Part shown: positions 1,279 through 8,169 of the stretch, piece after piece
How the letters are laid out: each line of letters opens with the position of its first letter
How positions within the stretch are numbered: position 1 is the first letter of the stretch
Origin: an uncultured Clostridia bacterium
Lineage (GTDB): Bacteria; Bacillota; Clostridia; Christensenellales; CAG-917
Assembly: GCA_947383095.1 (NCBI GenBank)
Contig: CANDBZ010000005.1
Span: 1-40,807 of the forward strand
Direction of reading: 5' to 3'
Length of the DNA: 40,807 nucleotides
Made by a program: the position numbers and the translations under genes
The notes under the pieces: generated by a model
The model's input: the letters and a program-made list of their open reading frames with translations, nothing else
What the model was told of the DNA's origin: nothing
Database searches by the model: none

Positions 1279-2354
1279 ATCAGTTTTGCTATGAATGCGT
1301 ACAGCCAATATGCGGCGGAAAGTCCGAGCGCAAGCCATACTCCTATCATTGGCTGCGCCTTGCCAAGCTGTTCGACTCCGTTCATTTGCGTAAGGGTACG
1401 GGTGACCGACCTCCGTCCCGCGCGCGTGAAGAGCGACTTAAAAAATGCAAAAAACTCTTTGACGGGATTGCGTTTGACGTCCGCGGGCTGCACGGCGTAA
1501 ATGGAAAACTCCTCATACTCGATACTGTTGCCCGTGACCTTGAATTCATTCTTGCTGCCCAGCCTATACATGATGTAAAGCAAAAGGACAAGCAGCAAAA
1601 GCCCGACGACAACGCTCGCCGCGCCCGTAAGCCAGTTGAAATGCCCGAGCCCGACGATAATCTCGCCCACCTGCGGCAGATAGGCGTTAATCGTGAGGCT
1701 TATGAAATTATTGAAAAAGTGCACCAGCACGCATGCCCAAAGCGAGTTCGTGAGAATCATGACGAGCGCAAGCACTATACCGATACCGAACTGATGCACC
1801 GTCTGCACGGGGTTTGCATGCATCAAGCTGAAAAACAACGCGGAAAAAAGTATGCCGAACAATACGCTTTTTGTGGAAAGCCCGCTAAAGACATGTCCGC
1901 GCATAAGGTATTCCTCGCCGAACGCCGGCAAAACCGCCATGACAAGCAGAGAGAGAAAGTAAGCGCCTACGCTCCCGAATTTGGGAGTATGCACGCTTGC
2001 GTGCATCCCTATCAGATTCAAAAACGCTTCCCACAAAATAGCGAGAGGGAAAAACGCGAGTATCGTCGCTACGGCGATAAAGGGAGTGAGCGCGAGCTGC
2101 GCAAGGCTGCGGGGCTTGCGTATGCGCGCAACGGAAATTTCGTCCAAACGGCGCACGCGTGCGTACACGAGCACGCTCGCCGTGAAGCCGACCTGCATGA
2201 CGACGTAGCCCACCCAATCCTGCGCTTCCATGCCGTCGAACACGGCAGTGACCTTCGAGAGCGCAAGCATGACAAACAGCGACAGCAGATTTGCCGCGCA
2301 AATTCCCAAAAGATATATAGAAGAGCCCTCGCTCGCGCCTATGGTCTTTCTCAT
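1275..2354 (-). CDS. CPBP-family intramembrane metalloprotease (first of a tandem pair)
   Basis: A 359-residue polytopic membrane protein with the CPBP protease signatures GEEYLMRG (E147, E148, R152), FSLMHAN (H179) and VHFFNN (H212, N215-N216). These positions agree to within one residue with those in the next gene, so the pair are probably paralogues. After the catalytic core there is a long cytoplasmic-looking insert (about residues 268-335, rich in charged residues) before a final hydrophobic helix. The ATG at 2352-2354 overlaps the walJ stop as ATGA, and the gene's own stop overlaps the following start, so walJ, both CPBP genes and rlmH are tightly coupled. A GAGGAG element lies somewhat far upstream of the ATG, so initiation may rely on coupling. 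The role is inferred only at family level. Confidence 0.88.
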   Translation of the reverse strand: MRKTIGASEGSSIYLLGICAANLLSLFVMLALSKVTAVFDGMEAQDWVGYVVMQVGFTASVLVYARVRRLDEISVARIRKPRSLAQLALTPFIAVATILAFFPLAILWEAFLNLIGMHASVHTPKFGSVGAYFLSLLVMAVLPAFGEEYLMRGHVFSGLSTKSVLFGILFSALFFSLMHANPVQTVHQFGIGIVLALVMILTNSLWACVLVHFFNNFISLTINAYLPQVGEIIVGLGHFNWLTGAASVVVGLLLLVLLLYIMYRLGSKNEFKVTGNSIEYEEFSIYAVQPADVKRNPVKEFFAFFKSLFTRAGRRSVTRTLTQMNGVEQLGKAQPMIGVWLALGLSAAYWLYAFIAKLI

Positions 2355-3130
2355 TTTATATCAAACTCCTCGCTTCTGACATATTGATGCGCAGTATGAA
2401 GCCGTATATGCCCGCCGCAGCCTTCGACGGCTTCCTTCACGGTGTCGAAAGCCATCTCCTCCGTATTGTTGTTTTCGCTGATATGTCCGAGTATTATATG
2501 CTTGACAGCGCTGTTTTCACAAAGCAATTTCGCTATTTTCGCCGCGCTATCGTTGGACAAATGCCCCTTGTTGGACAGTATGCGCGCCTTGAGATTGGGC
2601 GGATATTTGCCCTCCTTTAGCATGTCCACGTCGTGATTGGACTCCAAAAGCACGACCTCGCTGTCCTTTATATTTCGCATGACTCCGTAGGTGGGCACCC
2701 CTATATCGGTTGCGACGCTGCAGCGCGCCGAGCCTACGCGAAAAGAGTATGCCAAAGGGTAGACAGCGTCGTGCGGGATCCTGAACGGCTCAACTTTTAT
2801 ATCGCCCACAAAAAAACCGCCCTCATAATTATCGACTTCCGCAACGTTTTTCAACATGCCCTGCTTGTTATATATCTCCCTCGCCGTGTCGGGATGCGCA
2901 AACACCCTGCACTCCGCGCAAAGACGCGGCAGCGCTTTTACATGGTCGGCATGCTCATGAGTAATCACGACTCCGTCGAGCATAGACGGCTTCAGCCCCA
3001 GTTCCTCGAGGTCGTCGTGCAAACGCGCGTAAGATATGCCCGCGTCGACAAGCAGCGCGGAGCTATCGGACATTATCAGAGTGGCGTTGCCCTTGCTGCC
3101 ACTTGCAAGCGGAATAAGCTTTAAAGCCAT
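2351..3130 (-). CDS. walJ: WalJ/YycJ-type metallo-beta-lactamase-fold hydrolase
   Basis: A 259-residue cytoplasmic metallo-beta-lactamase-fold protein of the WalJ (YycJ/VicX) family. In Firmicutes the gene is linked to the WalRK cell-wall two-component system; the B. subtilis protein is a nuclease-like enzyme affecting coordination of cell division with replication. The N terminus (LIPLASGSKGNATLI) is typical, and the metal site THEHADHVKAL is intact (H58, H60, D62, H63), followed by further ligand segments LLESNHD and ILGHISENNN. The length is normal. No convincing ribosome site lies directly before the ATG at 3128-3130, and a terminator-like hairpin lies 28 bases upstream, so it probably starts its own transcript. 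No walR or walK is seen; they are not inside this window. Confidence 0.9.
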   Translation of the reverse strand: MALKLIPLASGSKGNATLIMSDSSALLVDAGISYARLHDDLEELGLKPSMLDGVVITHEHADHVKALPRLCAECRVFAHPDTAREIYNKQGMLKNVAEVDNYEGGFFVGDIKVEPFRIPHDAVYPLAYSFRVGSARCSVATDIGVPTYGVMRNIKDSEVVLLESNHDVDMLKEGKYPPNLKARILSNKGHLSNDSAAKIAKLLCENSAVKHIILGHISENNNTEEMAFDTVKEAVEGCGGHIRLHTAHQYVRSEEFDIK

Positions 3131-3183: not shown

Positions 3184-4044
3184 TCAAATTTCCTTGCCGC
3201 TTTGTTTTTTGTGCTCGGCATTGTCCTCTATACGATTGAGTATGACGGAAAACGCCACCGACAGCACGAACAACACAATACAAACGACCAAAATCACCAA
3301 AAACGCAACCTCGTTCGCCGCGTCAAAGGTCTGATTTTTGTCGACCAGCTTCCATATAAGCACGCCGAGCATGCATCCGAAGTCTATAAACGACAGCACC
3401 GCCGTCAACGTCCTCGGGTGCTTGCCGATAATGACCCCGATAAGGTTTGCTATCACCGCCGCCGCTGCGATTGCCGCGACGACTATGTATATCAGGTTTG
3501 TGACCGGCGTTATGCTGAAGCCGTTCTTCACCCAAGCGGTAATTGCGCCTATTATATCAAAGGATTTGAGCGACGCGCCCATATTAGTATCGAAATAGGA
3601 CAGTATAAACGGCAAGACGGTCACGGCCGCAAGCACAAAAGAAATAAGCGAGAAGATGCGTGGCAAATGGCGGCCCTTTTTCTTCGCTGTCTTTTTTTGC
3701 TCCGCCGCCTCGAATTGCGTAGCTTCTCCCTCGTCGTAGATCTCGGAAGCATACGACGCGGACTGCGCGCGTCCGTCCGTACGCAAAACGTTGCTGTCCT
3801 GCGTCATATACGGCACGACCGCAAGCGGCACCACTATCGGCTGCAGCTGTATTGTGTTGTGTTTAGGCGCGACGATAGGCACGGGACCGCCCATGCCCAC
3901 GGGCTTCATCACCGTGACGTCCGTGCCCGCGTCGGGCTGCGGAGAAGTATATGCCTCCGCCTCGAACAACGGCGTTTCCTCAACTCCGATTTCCACGGTG
4001 TTGACGGCGGCGACAGCCTCCTGTTTACGCTCCTTTTTTGCCAT
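3184..4044 (-). CDS. Uncharacterised four-helix membrane protein with long N-terminal tail
   Basis: I do not recognise this 286-residue protein. A polar N-terminal tail of about 128 residues contains Pro-rich stretches and the motif PIVVPLAVVPYMTQD (about residues 69-83). A lysine-rich segment (KKTAKKKGRH) follows, then four predicted membrane helices at about 130-150, 181-207, 212-233 and 246-272, and a short charged C terminus. The positive cluster before helix 1 suggests a cytoplasmic N terminus. A strong AGGAGGTGG ribosome site precedes the ATG at 4042-4044. The upstream neighbour has the same layout, and the zinc-ribbon gene beyond it carries nearly the same Pro motif, so the three probably work together. 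No enzymatic motif was seen. Confidence 0.8.
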   Translation of the reverse strand: MAKKERKQEAVAAVNTVEIGVEETPLFEAEAYTSPQPDAGTDVTVMKPVGMGGPVPIVAPKHNTIQLQPIVVPLAVVPYMTQDSNVLRTDGRAQSASYASEIYDEGEATQFEAAEQKKTAKKKGRHLPRIFSLISFVLAAVTVLPFILSYFDTNMGASLKSFDIIGAITAWVKNGFSITPVTNLIYIVVAAIAAAAVIANLIGVIIGKHPRTLTAVLSFIDFGCMLGVLIWKLVDKNQTFDAANEVAFLVILVVCIVLFVLSVAFSVILNRIEDNAEHKKQSGKEI

Positions 4045-4079
4045 AAATCCACCTCCTGCGCAATTAATGCGCGCGACGG

Positions 4080-4862
4080 TTATTTCATATATCCGTATTT
4101 ATCCGCGTCCACTCGGGTGCAAATAAACGAAACTGCGAAGTACCCGAGCGCGAAGACAACGAGACTGAACATCTCGCTCGTCTTATATCCGCGTATAAAA
4201 TCCTGCACAAAATCTATTTTTGCCACTCCTATCTTTTCCGCGCCCACAAGCGCAGCGATAAATACCGCAAGCACGGTGAACAAATAAACGACCGCGCCCT
4301 CCGTATAATTTACCGCCTTGACGGAGCCTATCATCGCATATAGAGATTTGAGCATGTTGACGGCAAGAAAAACCAGCCCCAGCATCAGTATCAAATCGGG
4401 CACGGCGTTCACCCATATCGCCTTGACCTCCGCGCCCTTCCATCCAACGCTTTCGGTAAGCTTGAAAGCGCGGACTATGTTGTCGAGCGCTCCGAAATCC
4501 CGCGGCACGTATTTGAACGCGAAATCGTCAAGCCAGACGCCGACCGCTCCGAGTATGTACGGCAAAACGACCGCGGCGGTGACTACGAACATCAGCAGAC
4601 CGACGACCATATTTTTTGCGCGCTTGCGTCTCTTCCACCTTTTGCTTATATCCTGCTTTTTGGGTTGGAAATCGTTCTCCGTTGAAGCTTTGGGCTGCCC
4701 GTCGTCCTCGGGCTCGTCCACGACTATATGCGGCGTGATGATAAAATCCTGCACGACCGACGGCATGACGTGATAACCGGAATTTTTTATGGGCGCAGGC
4801 GCGAGCCTTATGCCCGCGTCGTCAACTGCGCGTTTTTTATATTTTTTGTTTTCGTCCGCCAT
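4080..4862 (-). CDS. Uncharacterised four-helix membrane protein, likely paralogue of its neighbour
   Basis: An unrecognised protein of 260 residues. The first 80 residues are polar and end in a very basic stretch (KRWKRRKRAK). Four hydrophobic helices follow at about 84-108, 150-177, 188-210 and 230-250, with a short C-terminal tail. The topology and the tail-plus-basic-cluster layout match the downstream 286-residue protein, though sequence similarity is weak by eye. The tail contains MPSVVQDFIITPHIVVDEP, which resembles the P-I-V-x(6-7)-P-Y motif of the flanking genes in looser form. It lies 17 bases after the zinc-ribbon gene and 35 bases before the next gene, consistent with one transcript. 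The function is unknown; a role as membrane partner of the zinc-ribbon protein is an inference. Confidence 0.8.
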   Translation of the reverse strand: MADENKKYKKRAVDDAGIRLAPAPIKNSGYHVMPSVVQDFIITPHIVVDEPEDDGQPKASTENDFQPKKQDISKRWKRRKRAKNMVVGLLMFVVTAAVVLPYILGAVGVWLDDFAFKYVPRDFGALDNIVRAFKLTESVGWKGAEVKAIWVNAVPDLILMLGLVFLAVNMLKSLYAMIGSVKAVNYTEGAVVYLFTVLAVFIAALVGAEKIGVAKIDFVQDFIRGYKTSEMFSLVVFALGYFAVSFICTRVDADKYGYMK

Positions 4863-4879
4863 CGTCTATCCTTGCAAAA

Positions 4880-6067
4880 TCAGATTTTCTTCGTGTTTTG
4901 AGCCTGCGGCGCGGGCTCCGCACGTTTTATGCGCGCCGCCTCGGCGTATTGCGCGTTGAGCGCGGCGTCCTCCGGCAAATATTGCATAAGCGGTTGCTCC
5001 TGCGTCACATAAGGCACAAAAGCGACGGGCTGCACAATAGGAGGCATTTGCCTGTGCGGGTCGTTGGGCGCATAATAGTATCCGCCCTGCCCCGCCCCGT
5101 AAGGAGCGCCGTACGCCGCGTACGGATAAGGCGGATAAGCATATCCCGTGTGTCCGGGGCCCGAAAAGTCCCCGGGAGACTCCTGCCCTGCGGGTTTTTG
5201 AGTCTCTTCCTTTATCTCGTCCGCCGCGACCTCCTGCTTTTGACTTTCCGTGACAAACTCATCGAGCGTAGGCATCTTTTGCTTCGCAAGATCCTCGTCG
5301 GGAGGCGCGATAATGCGTTGCTTGCGCTTTATAGGCGGATGCTGCACTATCTTTTCTTTGGCGAGCAACAGCAGAGAACGGGCCTTGCTTCTGCCGCAAT
5401 TCGTACACGCCGTTGCGTTGAGCGGATTTATCGTGCCGCAAGACGGACACACATACGTGTCGGTCTCTATATCGTCCTCGTCTATCTGCGAATACGGGTC
5501 GGCATAATACTTGGAATACTCCTTGAGCGCCACCGATATCTTCTTCAGCAGCTCCACGTCTTCGGAGCCGAGCTCGTTCAGTCTTTCCCTGTACGCCTCG
5601 AGGGTGCTCGCCTTCTCGCGATACTCCAGCTCGCATCTTTTCCTGTATTCGTCGACTTCCTTTATCGCCTTTTCCTTTTCTTCCGCGGTTTTGGCGCGTT
5701 TTTCGGCAATTTCCTTATCGACGGCGGCCATTCTGTCGCGCTCCATATTATCCAGACGCTGTTTGGCCTTGCGCGCGTCGAGCATGTCGAAATCGGAGTG
5801 CGTTTCCGTATTCAGCTCTATGGGAGCGCCGCAGGACACGCAGTATTTCGCGCCGGGCAAATTCTGCGCGCCGCACACTACGCATACGGGCTTGCGCATC
5901 ACCTGCAAAATGCCGCCGCACCTTGCGCAATATCTGCTTCCCGCTCCGTTTTTTGAATTGCAAACGGGACATACGGTCTCATAGTTGTCCACTACGTCCG
6001 CGCCGCACGTCTGGCAAAAAGCCTGCCCTTGCTTTACCTCGTTTCCGCAAATTTTACAAACGAACAT
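4880..6067 (-). CDS. Multi-zinc-ribbon protein with coiled coil and Pro/Tyr-rich tail
   Basis: A 395-residue soluble protein. Three N-terminal zinc ribbons are clear from paired CxxC motifs (C4/C7 with C18/C21, C33/C36 with C47/C50, C62/C65 with C76/C79). A highly charged helical region follows (about 95-170, probably coiled coil), then a fourth ribbon (C207/C210 with C221/C224). The C-terminal part is disordered, with a Pro/Tyr/Gly/Ala-rich segment (about 303-337) and PPIVQPVAFVPYVTQEQP (about 342-359). The motif closely matches one in the membrane protein two genes downstream. Ribbons of this kind (DZR-type) often mediate protein or nucleic-acid contacts; the exact role is unknown. A GGAGAAG site precedes the ATG, 22 bases after glnS ends. 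Confidence 0.8.
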   Translation of the reverse strand: MFVCKICGNEVKQGQAFCQTCGADVVDNYETVCPVCNSKNGAGSRYCARCGGILQVMRKPVCVVCGAQNLPGAKYCVSCGAPIELNTETHSDFDMLDARKAKQRLDNMERDRMAAVDKEIAEKRAKTAEEKEKAIKEVDEYRKRCELEYREKASTLEAYRERLNELGSEDVELLKKISVALKEYSKYYADPYSQIDEDDIETDTYVCPSCGTINPLNATACTNCGRSKARSLLLLAKEKIVQHPPIKRKQRIIAPPDEDLAKQKMPTLDEFVTESQKQEVAADEIKEETQKPAGQESPGDFSGPGHTGYAYPPYPYAAYGAPYGAGQGGYYYAPNDPHRQMPPIVQPVAFVPYVTQEQPLMQYLPEDAALNAQYAEAARIKRAEPAPQAQNTKKI

Positions 6068-6088
6068 TTTGCTTCTCCGTCGCTTCTT

Positions 6089-7705
6089 TTATTTTATCTT
6101 GAAGCTGTCCTTGAGCCCTACAATGCTGTTGAACTCGTTGTTTTCATTCCTCTTGATGAAGTATCCCTCTCGCAAGAATTGAAATCTCGTATGCACGGGA
6201 GCGTCCGCGACAAGTCTTTCCGCCTTGCCGTGCAGCACCGTGAGCGAATTGGGATTGAGCCTGTCCATATAGTCCCCGTCCCCGTCGCCGATAAGATAGT
6301 CGAACATATTCAGCGTGACGTCTGCGCAATCCTGCGCGTTGACCCAATGTATGGTGCCCTTCACCTTCATATTCGCGCCCTCTTCGCCGGAGCGCGTGCC
6401 TTCTATATACTCGACATGCACCGCCTTGACGTTGCCGTCCGCGTCCAGATCGCAGCTCTTATACTTCACGATATACGCGCCCTTTAAGCGTACGATACCG
6501 TCCGGCTTGAGGCGGAAATATTTGGGCGGAGGGTCGAGCGAAAAATCGTCCTGCTCGATATAAAGCTCCCGAGAGAACGTCACCGCGTGAACGCCGCTGC
6601 CCTCTTTTTGAGGATTATTTTCTATATACGCCTCTTCCGTTTTGCCGTCGGGATAATTGTCGACGATAAGCTTAAGCGGCTTCGTCACAACCATTGCGCG
6701 CTGCGCGTTTGCGTTTAAGTCCTCTCTTACGCAGTGCTCCAGCATGGAAATATCCACCTCGCTGTCCGCCTTCGCAACGCCTATGCGTGAGCAGAAATCG
6801 CGTATCGCGGCAGGCGTATAGCCCCTCTCCCTTATGCCGCAGAGCGTGGACAGACGGGGGTCGTCCCAGCCCCAGACTATCTTCTCGTCCACGAGCTTTT
6901 TTATAAAACGCTTGCTCATCACGGCGTGAGTCAGGTTGAGTCTTGCGAATTCTATCTGCCTCGGACGGGGATCGAAGCCGCAATTCTCCGTCACCCAATC
7001 GTAAAGCGGACGGTGATTTTCAAACTCCAGCGAGCAGAGCGAATGGGATATGCCCTCCACCGCGTCCTCTATGGGGTGCGCGAAATCGTACATCGGGTAT
7101 ATGCACCACTTGTCGCCGGTATGCGGATGCGTCGCGTGGCAAATGCGGTAAATGACGGGATCGCGCATATTGATGTTGGGCGACGACATATCGATCTTTG
7201 CGCGCAAAACCTTTTCTCCGTCCGCAAACTCGCCGTCCTTCATTTTTTCAAAGAGCGCAAGATTTTCCTCCGCGCTTCTGTTCCTGTACGGGCTTTCCTT
7301 GCCGGGAACGCCGAAGCTGCCGCGCGTCGCGCTTATCTCCTCCGCGGAGAGATCGCAAACGTACGCCTTGCCGTCCTTGATGAGCTTTACGGCGCATTCG
7401 TACATCTTGGGGAAATAGTCGCTGGCGTTGTAAAGCCCGTCCCATTCGAAGCCGAGCCACTCTATGTCGCGCTTTATGCTCTCCATATACTCCACGTCCT
7501 CTTTGACGGGATTGGTGTCGTCAAAACGCAGGTTGCATATGCCGTTATATTTTTCTTTCACGCCGAAGTTGATGCACAGCGCCTTGGCGTGACCTATGTG
7601 CAGATATCCGTTGGGCTCCGGCGGAAATCGTGTGACGATCTTGCTTGCCTTGCCGTCGGCAATGTCCTGCTCGATAAATTCTTCGATAAAGTTTTTAGAG
7701 TCCAT
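6089..7705 (-). CDS. glnS: Glutaminyl-tRNA synthetase
   Basis: Class I aminoacyl-tRNA synthetase that charges tRNA-Gln with glutamine in the cytoplasm. The N terminus has RFPPEPNGYLHIGHAKA, with the HIGH signature at residues 36-39 and the eukaryote/GlnRS-type PPEPNG context rather than that of GluRS. FDDTNP follows, and the KMSKS-type loop is VMSKR (262-266), as usual for GlnRS. The C-terminal beta-barrel anticodon-binding region is present (YIEGTRSGEEG, TIHWV). The length of 538 residues is normal. Having GlnRS suggests direct glutaminylation, although a GatCAB pathway elsewhere cannot be excluded. It begins one base after the GNAT-like stop and has no T-box leader; its promoter appears to be the one at 8104-8132. 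Confidence 0.96.
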   Translation of the reverse strand: MDSKNFIEEFIEQDIADGKASKIVTRFPPEPNGYLHIGHAKALCINFGVKEKYNGICNLRFDDTNPVKEDVEYMESIKRDIEWLGFEWDGLYNASDYFPKMYECAVKLIKDGKAYVCDLSAEEISATRGSFGVPGKESPYRNRSAEENLALFEKMKDGEFADGEKVLRAKIDMSSPNINMRDPVIYRICHATHPHTGDKWCIYPMYDFAHPIEDAVEGISHSLCSLEFENHRPLYDWVTENCGFDPRPRQIEFARLNLTHAVMSKRFIKKLVDEKIVWGWDDPRLSTLCGIRERGYTPAAIRDFCSRIGVAKADSEVDISMLEHCVREDLNANAQRAMVVTKPLKLIVDNYPDGKTEEAYIENNPQKEGSGVHAVTFSRELYIEQDDFSLDPPPKYFRLKPDGIVRLKGAYIVKYKSCDLDADGNVKAVHVEYIEGTRSGEEGANMKVKGTIHWVNAQDCADVTLNMFDYLIGDGDGDYMDRLNPNSLTVLHGKAERLVADAPVHTRFQFLREGYFIKRNENNEFNSIVGLKDSFKIK

Positions 7706-7706
7706 A

Positions 7707-8093
7707 TCAACCCTTCTTGCCTCCGCATCTATAGTGCAAATTTATATCCTTTGAGTACGCTTCCATGCACCCGTTTTTCTCCGCGAACCCGAATTTCGCA
7801 AAGCTTTCGTCCGCCTCCGGCACGCGCAGCTTGACGGGCGCGCCCTCCATGAGCTTGAAGAACATAGCGTGCATGAAAAAAGTTCTGTCTTCCTCGTCTA
7901 CGCCGTCCGCAAAATATATCCTGCGTATCACGCCTACGGGCTCGTCCTCGACCTCTACTGACATATTCCAAAGCGCGACGGGCTTGTCGCCGTCATACAT
8001 AAAGAAATTGGCGCCGGAGGGCTTTTCCTCCAACCCGAGCGTTTTGTATATGTCCGCGGCGGCGCGCGAATCTTCGTATTTTACGGTCAGCAT
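7707..8093 (-). CDS. Small GNAT-fold-like protein lacking an obvious acetyl-CoA motif
   Basis: A 128-residue protein. The pattern of an early helix, a central V-x-R-R-I-Y-F strand and a late F-A-K-F-G-F-x-E segment resembles GNAT N-acetyltransferases. However, the R/Q-x-x-G-x-G/A acetyl-CoA loop expected after the central strand is replaced by ADGVDEEDRTFF, so activity is doubtful. It may instead be a non-catalytic GNAT-like domain. The ATG at 8091-8093 is preferred over upstream alternatives because the promoter (8104-8132) ends just before it; a longer start at 8144 would lie upstream of the promoter. It is followed after one base by glnS, so the two are co-expressed. The role is unknown. 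Confidence 0.65.
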   Translation of the reverse strand: MLTVKYEDSRAAADIYKTLGLEEKPSGANFFMYDGDKPVALWNMSVEVEDEPVGVIRRIYFADGVDEEDRTFFMHAMFFKLMEGAPVKLRVPEADESFAKFGFAEKNGCMEAYSKDINLHYRCGGKKG

Positions 8094-8103
8094 AATATAA
8101 ATA

Positions 8104-8132
8104 ATAATAAAGCGAAAATATGTATATGTCAA
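8104..8132 (-). promoter_or_regulatory. Sigma-A-type promoter for the GNAT-like/glnS operon
   Basis: Minus strand: TTGACA (8127-8132), 17-base spacer, TATTAT (8104-8109). Only 10 bases separate the -10 from the ATG at 8093, so the predicted 5' leader is about 0-4 bases. No ribosome site fits. Confidence 0.8.
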
Positions 8133-8169
8133 GATATAGCGCAAAGTGAAATGTTGGAAAAACTTCCGT

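Follow-up and report, generated by a model that had tools for sequence, protein, structure and literature searches.

Three adjacent genes of an uncultured Clostridia bacterium encode a zinc-ribbon protein (P0003) and two four-transmembrane (four-TM) proteins (P0002 and P0001), and the tails of P0003 and P0001 share a short proline-containing motif that is under purifying selection. Across dozens of species this motif is kept as strictly as the zinc-binding cysteines, in proteins that lie outside the family databases. We put it at about an even chance that the locus encodes a lineage-specific membrane complex whose subunits are joined by the motif as a docking tail. The analysis covered one stretch of DNA of 40,807 nucleotides, hereafter the window, together with relatives gathered from 60 genomes and named public contigs. 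The three open reading frames lie where the first-pass annotation had placed them, all on the minus strand (Table 1), and the gaps between glnS, P0003, P0002 and P0001 measure 21, 17 and 35 bases, in that order. P0003 has no TM helix, and its Pro/Tyr/Gly-rich tail carries the motif near the C-terminus. P0001 begins with a cytoplasmic-looking N-terminal tail that holds the motif, followed by a basic stretch and then by the four TM helices.

Table 1. Features of the motif locus and its conserved neighbours, in window coordinates.
Feature	Coordinates	Strand	Description
P0003, zinc-ribbon protein	4880-6067	minus	395 aa; four ribbons, coiled coil, motif tail
Zinc ribbon 1 of P0003	5993..6058	minus	PF13240 match
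Zinc ribbon 2 of P0003	5915..5971	minus	PF13240 match
Zinc ribbon 3 of P0003	5819..5884	minus	PF13240 match
Zinc ribbon 4 of P0003	5387..5449	minus	PF13240 match
Motif copy in P0003	4979..5050	minus	aa 340-363, QMPPIVQPVAFVPYVTQEQPLMQY, in C-terminal tail
P0002, middle four-TM protein	4080-4862	minus	260 aa; paralogue of P0001
Probable decayed motif in P0002	4722..4766	minus	aa 33-47, MPSVVQDFIITPHIV
P0001, four-TM protein whose N-terminal tail bears the motif	3184-4044	minus	286 aa
Motif copy in P0001	3793..3849	minus	aa 66-84, QLQPIVVPLAVVPYMTQDS, in N-terminal tail
Four-TM bundle of P0001	3196..3669	minus	aa 126-283, short helix in loop 1; AlphaFold model
glnS	6089..7705	minus	conserved upstream neighbour; outside the system; present where the triplet is lost
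MBL-fold hydrolase (walJ/yycJ-like)	2351..3130	minus	conserved downstream neighbour; outside the system

That the motif occurs in the C-terminal tail of P0003 and the N-terminal tail of P0001, as the first-pass annotation had written it, was borne out by both shuffling and a genome-wide profile search. Over 19 residues the two tails matched with a top score of 61, whereas 100 shuffles averaged 25.9 and never exceeded 39, and a motif profile run over the whole 1.35 Mb genome returned the places in P0003 and P0001 only, even at E<=10. The similarity of the two tails is beyond chance. Proline-rich tails are compositionally biased, which would speak for an accidental likeness, yet the strict pattern is expected only ~1e-8 times in the genome and is near-invariant across dozens of species; we assign this reading a vanishingly small probability, conservation in orthologues having already refuted it. 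The motif had also been claimed for all three proteins. This stood for P0001 and P0003, but the P0002 form MPSVVQDFIITPHIV is degenerate and weak when taken alone: 8 of 200 shuffles matched P0003 equally well, and profile comparison with the motif gave a probability of 2.5%. Because syntenic middle proteins in four early-branching genera have the canonical motif (QLQPIVQPVAVVPF in L042, QMPAIVQPIALSP in L040, QLQPTVNPVAIAPY in L043 and QLAPIVQPM in L041), the looser form is best understood as a copy that has decayed.

Within the window's family (f1, putatively including Candidatus Faecicola), a P0003 relative was detected at E <= 1e-14 in 31 of 36 genomes, and in one further genome of the family (G007) P0003 was seen only as a contig-edge fragment; close orthologues occur in Candidatus Limadaptatus (a putative name). 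Among 38 P0001 relatives (alignment A3), all invariant columns other than the start Met fall within the motif, and among 26 P0003 relatives (A5) the invariant columns are mainly the motif and the zinc-binding cysteines. The mean top-residue frequency in P0001 was 0.95 for motif columns versus 0.50 for the rest, and in P0003 it was 0.98 versus 0.61, the motif scoring above any zinc-ribbon window. Rather than orthologues losing the motif and keeping the rest, we saw the reverse: both proteins preserve the motif better than any other part. Its codons vary freely at synonymous positions and the constraint therefore acts on the protein. Gene conversion as the source of the likeness was ruled out, since the two window copies agree at only 11 of 19 residues and 37 of 57 bases; the same codon is used at 5 of the 11 shared residues.

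The motif copies also fall into subtypes with private invariant residues, namely V72 and M80 in P0001 and Q346, F350 and V354 in P0003, a pattern that hints at more than one kind of docking site, and at several of them. Such invariants are not expected of a simple homotypic sticker. They thereby speak against a reading in which the motif self-associates, its extended strands stacking into membrane-tethered clusters or condensates with the help of Pro/Tyr/Gly-rich tails. Self-association would suit a motif that is hydrophobic, contains Gln and Tyr, shows a two-residue strand in one model (that of the f24 fusion protein described below) and is present in several copies per cluster, one of them in a P0003 tail rich in P, Y and G. 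However, the motif has regularly spaced invariant prolines, an arrangement that disfavours beta stacking, and we regard this reading as unlikely.

The description of the three proteins as otherwise different did not survive profile comparison. hhalign gave 98% for P0001 versus P0002 and 97% for P0001 versus the motif-bearing four-TM class of family f24 (putatively the DTU072 bin and Candidatus Stercoripulliclostridium), far above the 6.4% or less obtained for two unrelated membrane proteins used as controls; some four-TM classes of family f13 were too distant for a direct link. Judged by these profiles, the four-TM domains are one paralogous family, and in other families the ribbon is fused to a like four-TM domain. 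Given the paralogy and the fusions, the common motif was more likely inherited and duplicated than acquired by convergence. Two tandem zinc-ribbon and four-TM proteins without the motif are encoded on the minus strand of L192 (genome G071, family f9) at 3757-4968 and 4995-6254. They share with the present locus the succession of ribbons and four TM helices and give a weak match to the four-TM profile, but they differ in having neither the motif nor small motif proteins and in lying in another neighbourhood. We consider them possible relatives of the ancestral form, and they suggest, without proof, that the ribbon-four-TM combination is older and the motif an innovation. Elsewhere in the order, relatives of the four-TM domain gave weak matches only.

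Common descent could also account for the motif in a plainer way, as an inherited tail piece of an ancestral ribbon-four-TM protein that acts as a membrane-proximal targeting or folding element and docks nowhere. The paralogous four-TM domains, the existence of ribbon-four-TM fusions and the motif-less proteins of L192 would all agree with this. This idea loses force, as the motif is preserved better than the attached four-TM domain and persists in proteins that have no TM helix at all (P0003 and the small proteins described below), and it appears quite improbable to us. Independently of this scenario, shared ancestry could explain the resemblance of the copies without a common binding site, which counts against a complex.

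Related families arrange the same parts in split and fused forms. In f1 the order is glnS, ribbon+motif, four-TM (motif-bearing in early-branching genera) and motif+four-TM. The typical f24 order starts with glnS, a ribbon(+motif)+four-TM protein, four-TM, a small motif protein, four-TM and a small motif protein, and continues with motif+four-TM, a small motif protein and motif+four-TM, followed by secE and nusG; in this family ribbon, motif and four-TM domain are joined in one polypeptide (A7). The f13 cluster comprises a ribbon+four-TM protein that lacks the motif, several four-TM proteins, one motif+four-TM protein and 3-4 motif-only proteins (64-97 aa). In two families, free-standing motif proteins of 64-133 aa adjoin motif-less four-TM genes. 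The Pro-rich stretch preceding the motif in the small proteins and in the early-branching f1 middle proteins looks suggestive by eye, and its profile comparison was not significant. In some f24 genera the cluster also contains small zinc proteins with one ribbon and no motif (153-168 aa; L107 4864-5325, L112 5427-5912 and L121 11721-12227).

When a 22-row motif profile was run over 297 genomes of the order, the motif was found in 45, confined to families f1, f13 and f24, at 2-7 copies per genome, almost all of them within one cluster and usually beside glnS. Outside the order, 391 genomes of the class yielded no credible match; there were four weak ones (E 1e-3 to 1e-2), and the three inspected (G419, G610, G583) ran antisense to other genes. 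The triplet behaves as a single unit that a genome can do without. In G011, which belongs to the same genus as the window and is 98% complete, direct reading of the site (L184 9160-11617) revealed that glnS adjoins the MBL hydrolase gene and that all three triplet genes are absent. The motif is absent from G022, no P0003 relative was found in G022 or G030, and the P0002 profile, in a search that had no positive control, returned nothing in G011, G022 and G030. At 5145-6135 on the minus strand of L120 (G251:C8), the genes for a small motif protein and a four-TM protein stand by themselves, apart from the main cluster (L119). Their motif is the same as that of the L119 copy, which gives the impression that the two genes moved together.

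The narrow distribution bears on whether the motif might bind a partner that the cluster does not encode, perhaps a housekeeping machine (the Sec translocon, the ribosome and division proteins are examples), and recruit each protein to it separately, making a single complex unneeded. Such a partner is made thinkable by the position of the f24 cluster between glnS and secE-nusG-rplK/A, and the free-standing motif proteins could serve any partner as adaptors. Housekeeping partners are universal, however, and the motif is absent in the other sampled families of the order. Moreover, the f13 cluster has other neighbours, such as an AsnRS-like gene in L039, and the window's own genome has no motif beyond the cluster. 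We find an outside partner rather doubtful, if worth keeping in sight.

We favour a complex formed within the cluster. The locus would encode a lineage-specific hetero-oligomeric assembly on the cytoplasmic side of the membrane, composed of the paralogous four-TM proteins and the zinc-ribbon protein; the cytoplasmic side is suggested by the basic residues before TM1 and by the zinc ribbons. The shared ~25-residue element (I/V)QLxPIVQPIAxVPYxTQxQPLLQY would act as a flexible docking peptide that turns ordered upon binding an acceptor site inside the complex. It could be supplied in cis or in trans, by the N-terminal tail of a membrane protein, the tail of the ribbon protein or a separate small protein, and the candidate acceptors are the four-TM cytoplasmic face and the terminal ribbon. 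A docking peptide would best explain the motif because the element is disordered in the predicted structures, strongly selected and present in different tails as well as in small proteins beside motif-less partners. The first-pass proposal of an undescribed membrane complex gained ground from the free-standing motif proteins and the ribbon-motif-four-TM fusions of the sister families; the physical complex, like the docking role and the acceptor, is what we infer.

Several observations count against such a complex. The apparent decay of the motif in P0002 and its absence from the f13 ribbon-four-TM protein imply that not every subunit needs it, and the unit as a whole can be dispensed with, as in G011 and G022. 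AlphaFold predicted a confident four-TM bundle for P0001, without strands or paired cysteines, and a disordered tail carrying the motif. The model of the f24 fusion, of moderate confidence (mean pLDDT 62.7), arranges the TM helices in the same way and again leaves the motif disordered. In neither single-chain model was the motif docked on the ribbon or the four-TM bundle, which would argue against the complex, the absence in the f24 fusion model saying little in view of its moderate confidence. As a tentative extension, which we consider possible though on the weaker side, the motif may represent a portable assembly code, in which docking-peptide subtypes order the four-TM subunits and a zinc-ribbon cap within a hitherto undescribed membrane machine; that machine would have grown by gene duplication and by the code splitting off as independent small proteins. 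Should the motif prove to be a docking code, it would define a new membrane system of several subunits in uncultured Clostridia from animal guts, and the motif's partner could be approached directly with one peptide.

Zinc ribbons and the docking-peptide principle are ordinary, whereas the motif, the paralogous four-TM family and the split or fused architecture are undescribed in the libraries and the limited open-access literature covered. A limited open-access search returned nothing relevant and no described system with such parts. Across Pfam, NCBIfam, PHROGs, PADLOC and PDB sequences, the four-TM and motif parts had no family, and only the zinc ribbons matched. Similar to Zn_Ribbon_1 and DZR proteins (PF13240, PF12773), P0003 has four ribbons and passes the Pfam cut-off as a whole protein (PF13240, 71.2 bits versus a cut-off of 25, over four stretches with paired CxxC knuckles); unlike in these families, whose fold is generic and has no fixed function, it adds a coiled coil, a Pro/Tyr tail and the motif. 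The cysteines of ribbon 4 and the basic stretch after them are near-invariant in the orthologue alignment A5. PADLOC (anti-phage defence) gave weak partial matches only (best E 0.0013), and PHROGs had no match beyond the zinc ribbon, others being weaker than 0.005. The best PHROGs match was a weak one, of ribbon 4 (5387-5449) to a phage DNA-binding family, phrog_16351 (E 1.7e-5).

The four-helix topology of the P0001 model is like that of TARP/claudin-like, tetraspan and DsbB/VKOR bundles, but its Z scores fall short of the value quoted for helical matches arising by chance. VIA-align returned generic four-helix bundles (Z 8-11), and the claudin/TARP-like tetraspan fold reached Z values up to about 10.8 at rmsd 2.8-4.6, within the chance range for helical bundles; no Pfam match to a claudin/TARP-like profile exceeded the cut-off for P0001 or its relatives. 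A Foldseek search with the P0001 model found nothing with E below 0.1, which leaves room for a family missing from that search. As in docking-peptide assemblies, the motif is short, disordered and strongly conserved, occurs in different proteins and in free small proteins, and stays conserved across the different products of a single locus. It departs from them in its length of ~25 residues, in being confined to the cluster and in having no known acceptor domain and no PDB or family match.

The surroundings of the locus recur in relatives as well. Behind the MBL hydrolase, two tandem CPBP-type intramembrane protease-like genes occupy 316-2354 on the minus strand of the window, and such genes are found at the same place in related genomes. 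Upstream of glnS, the window encodes a small protein without NCBIfam match (7707-8144, minus), and small genes resembling it also precede glnS in related genomes.
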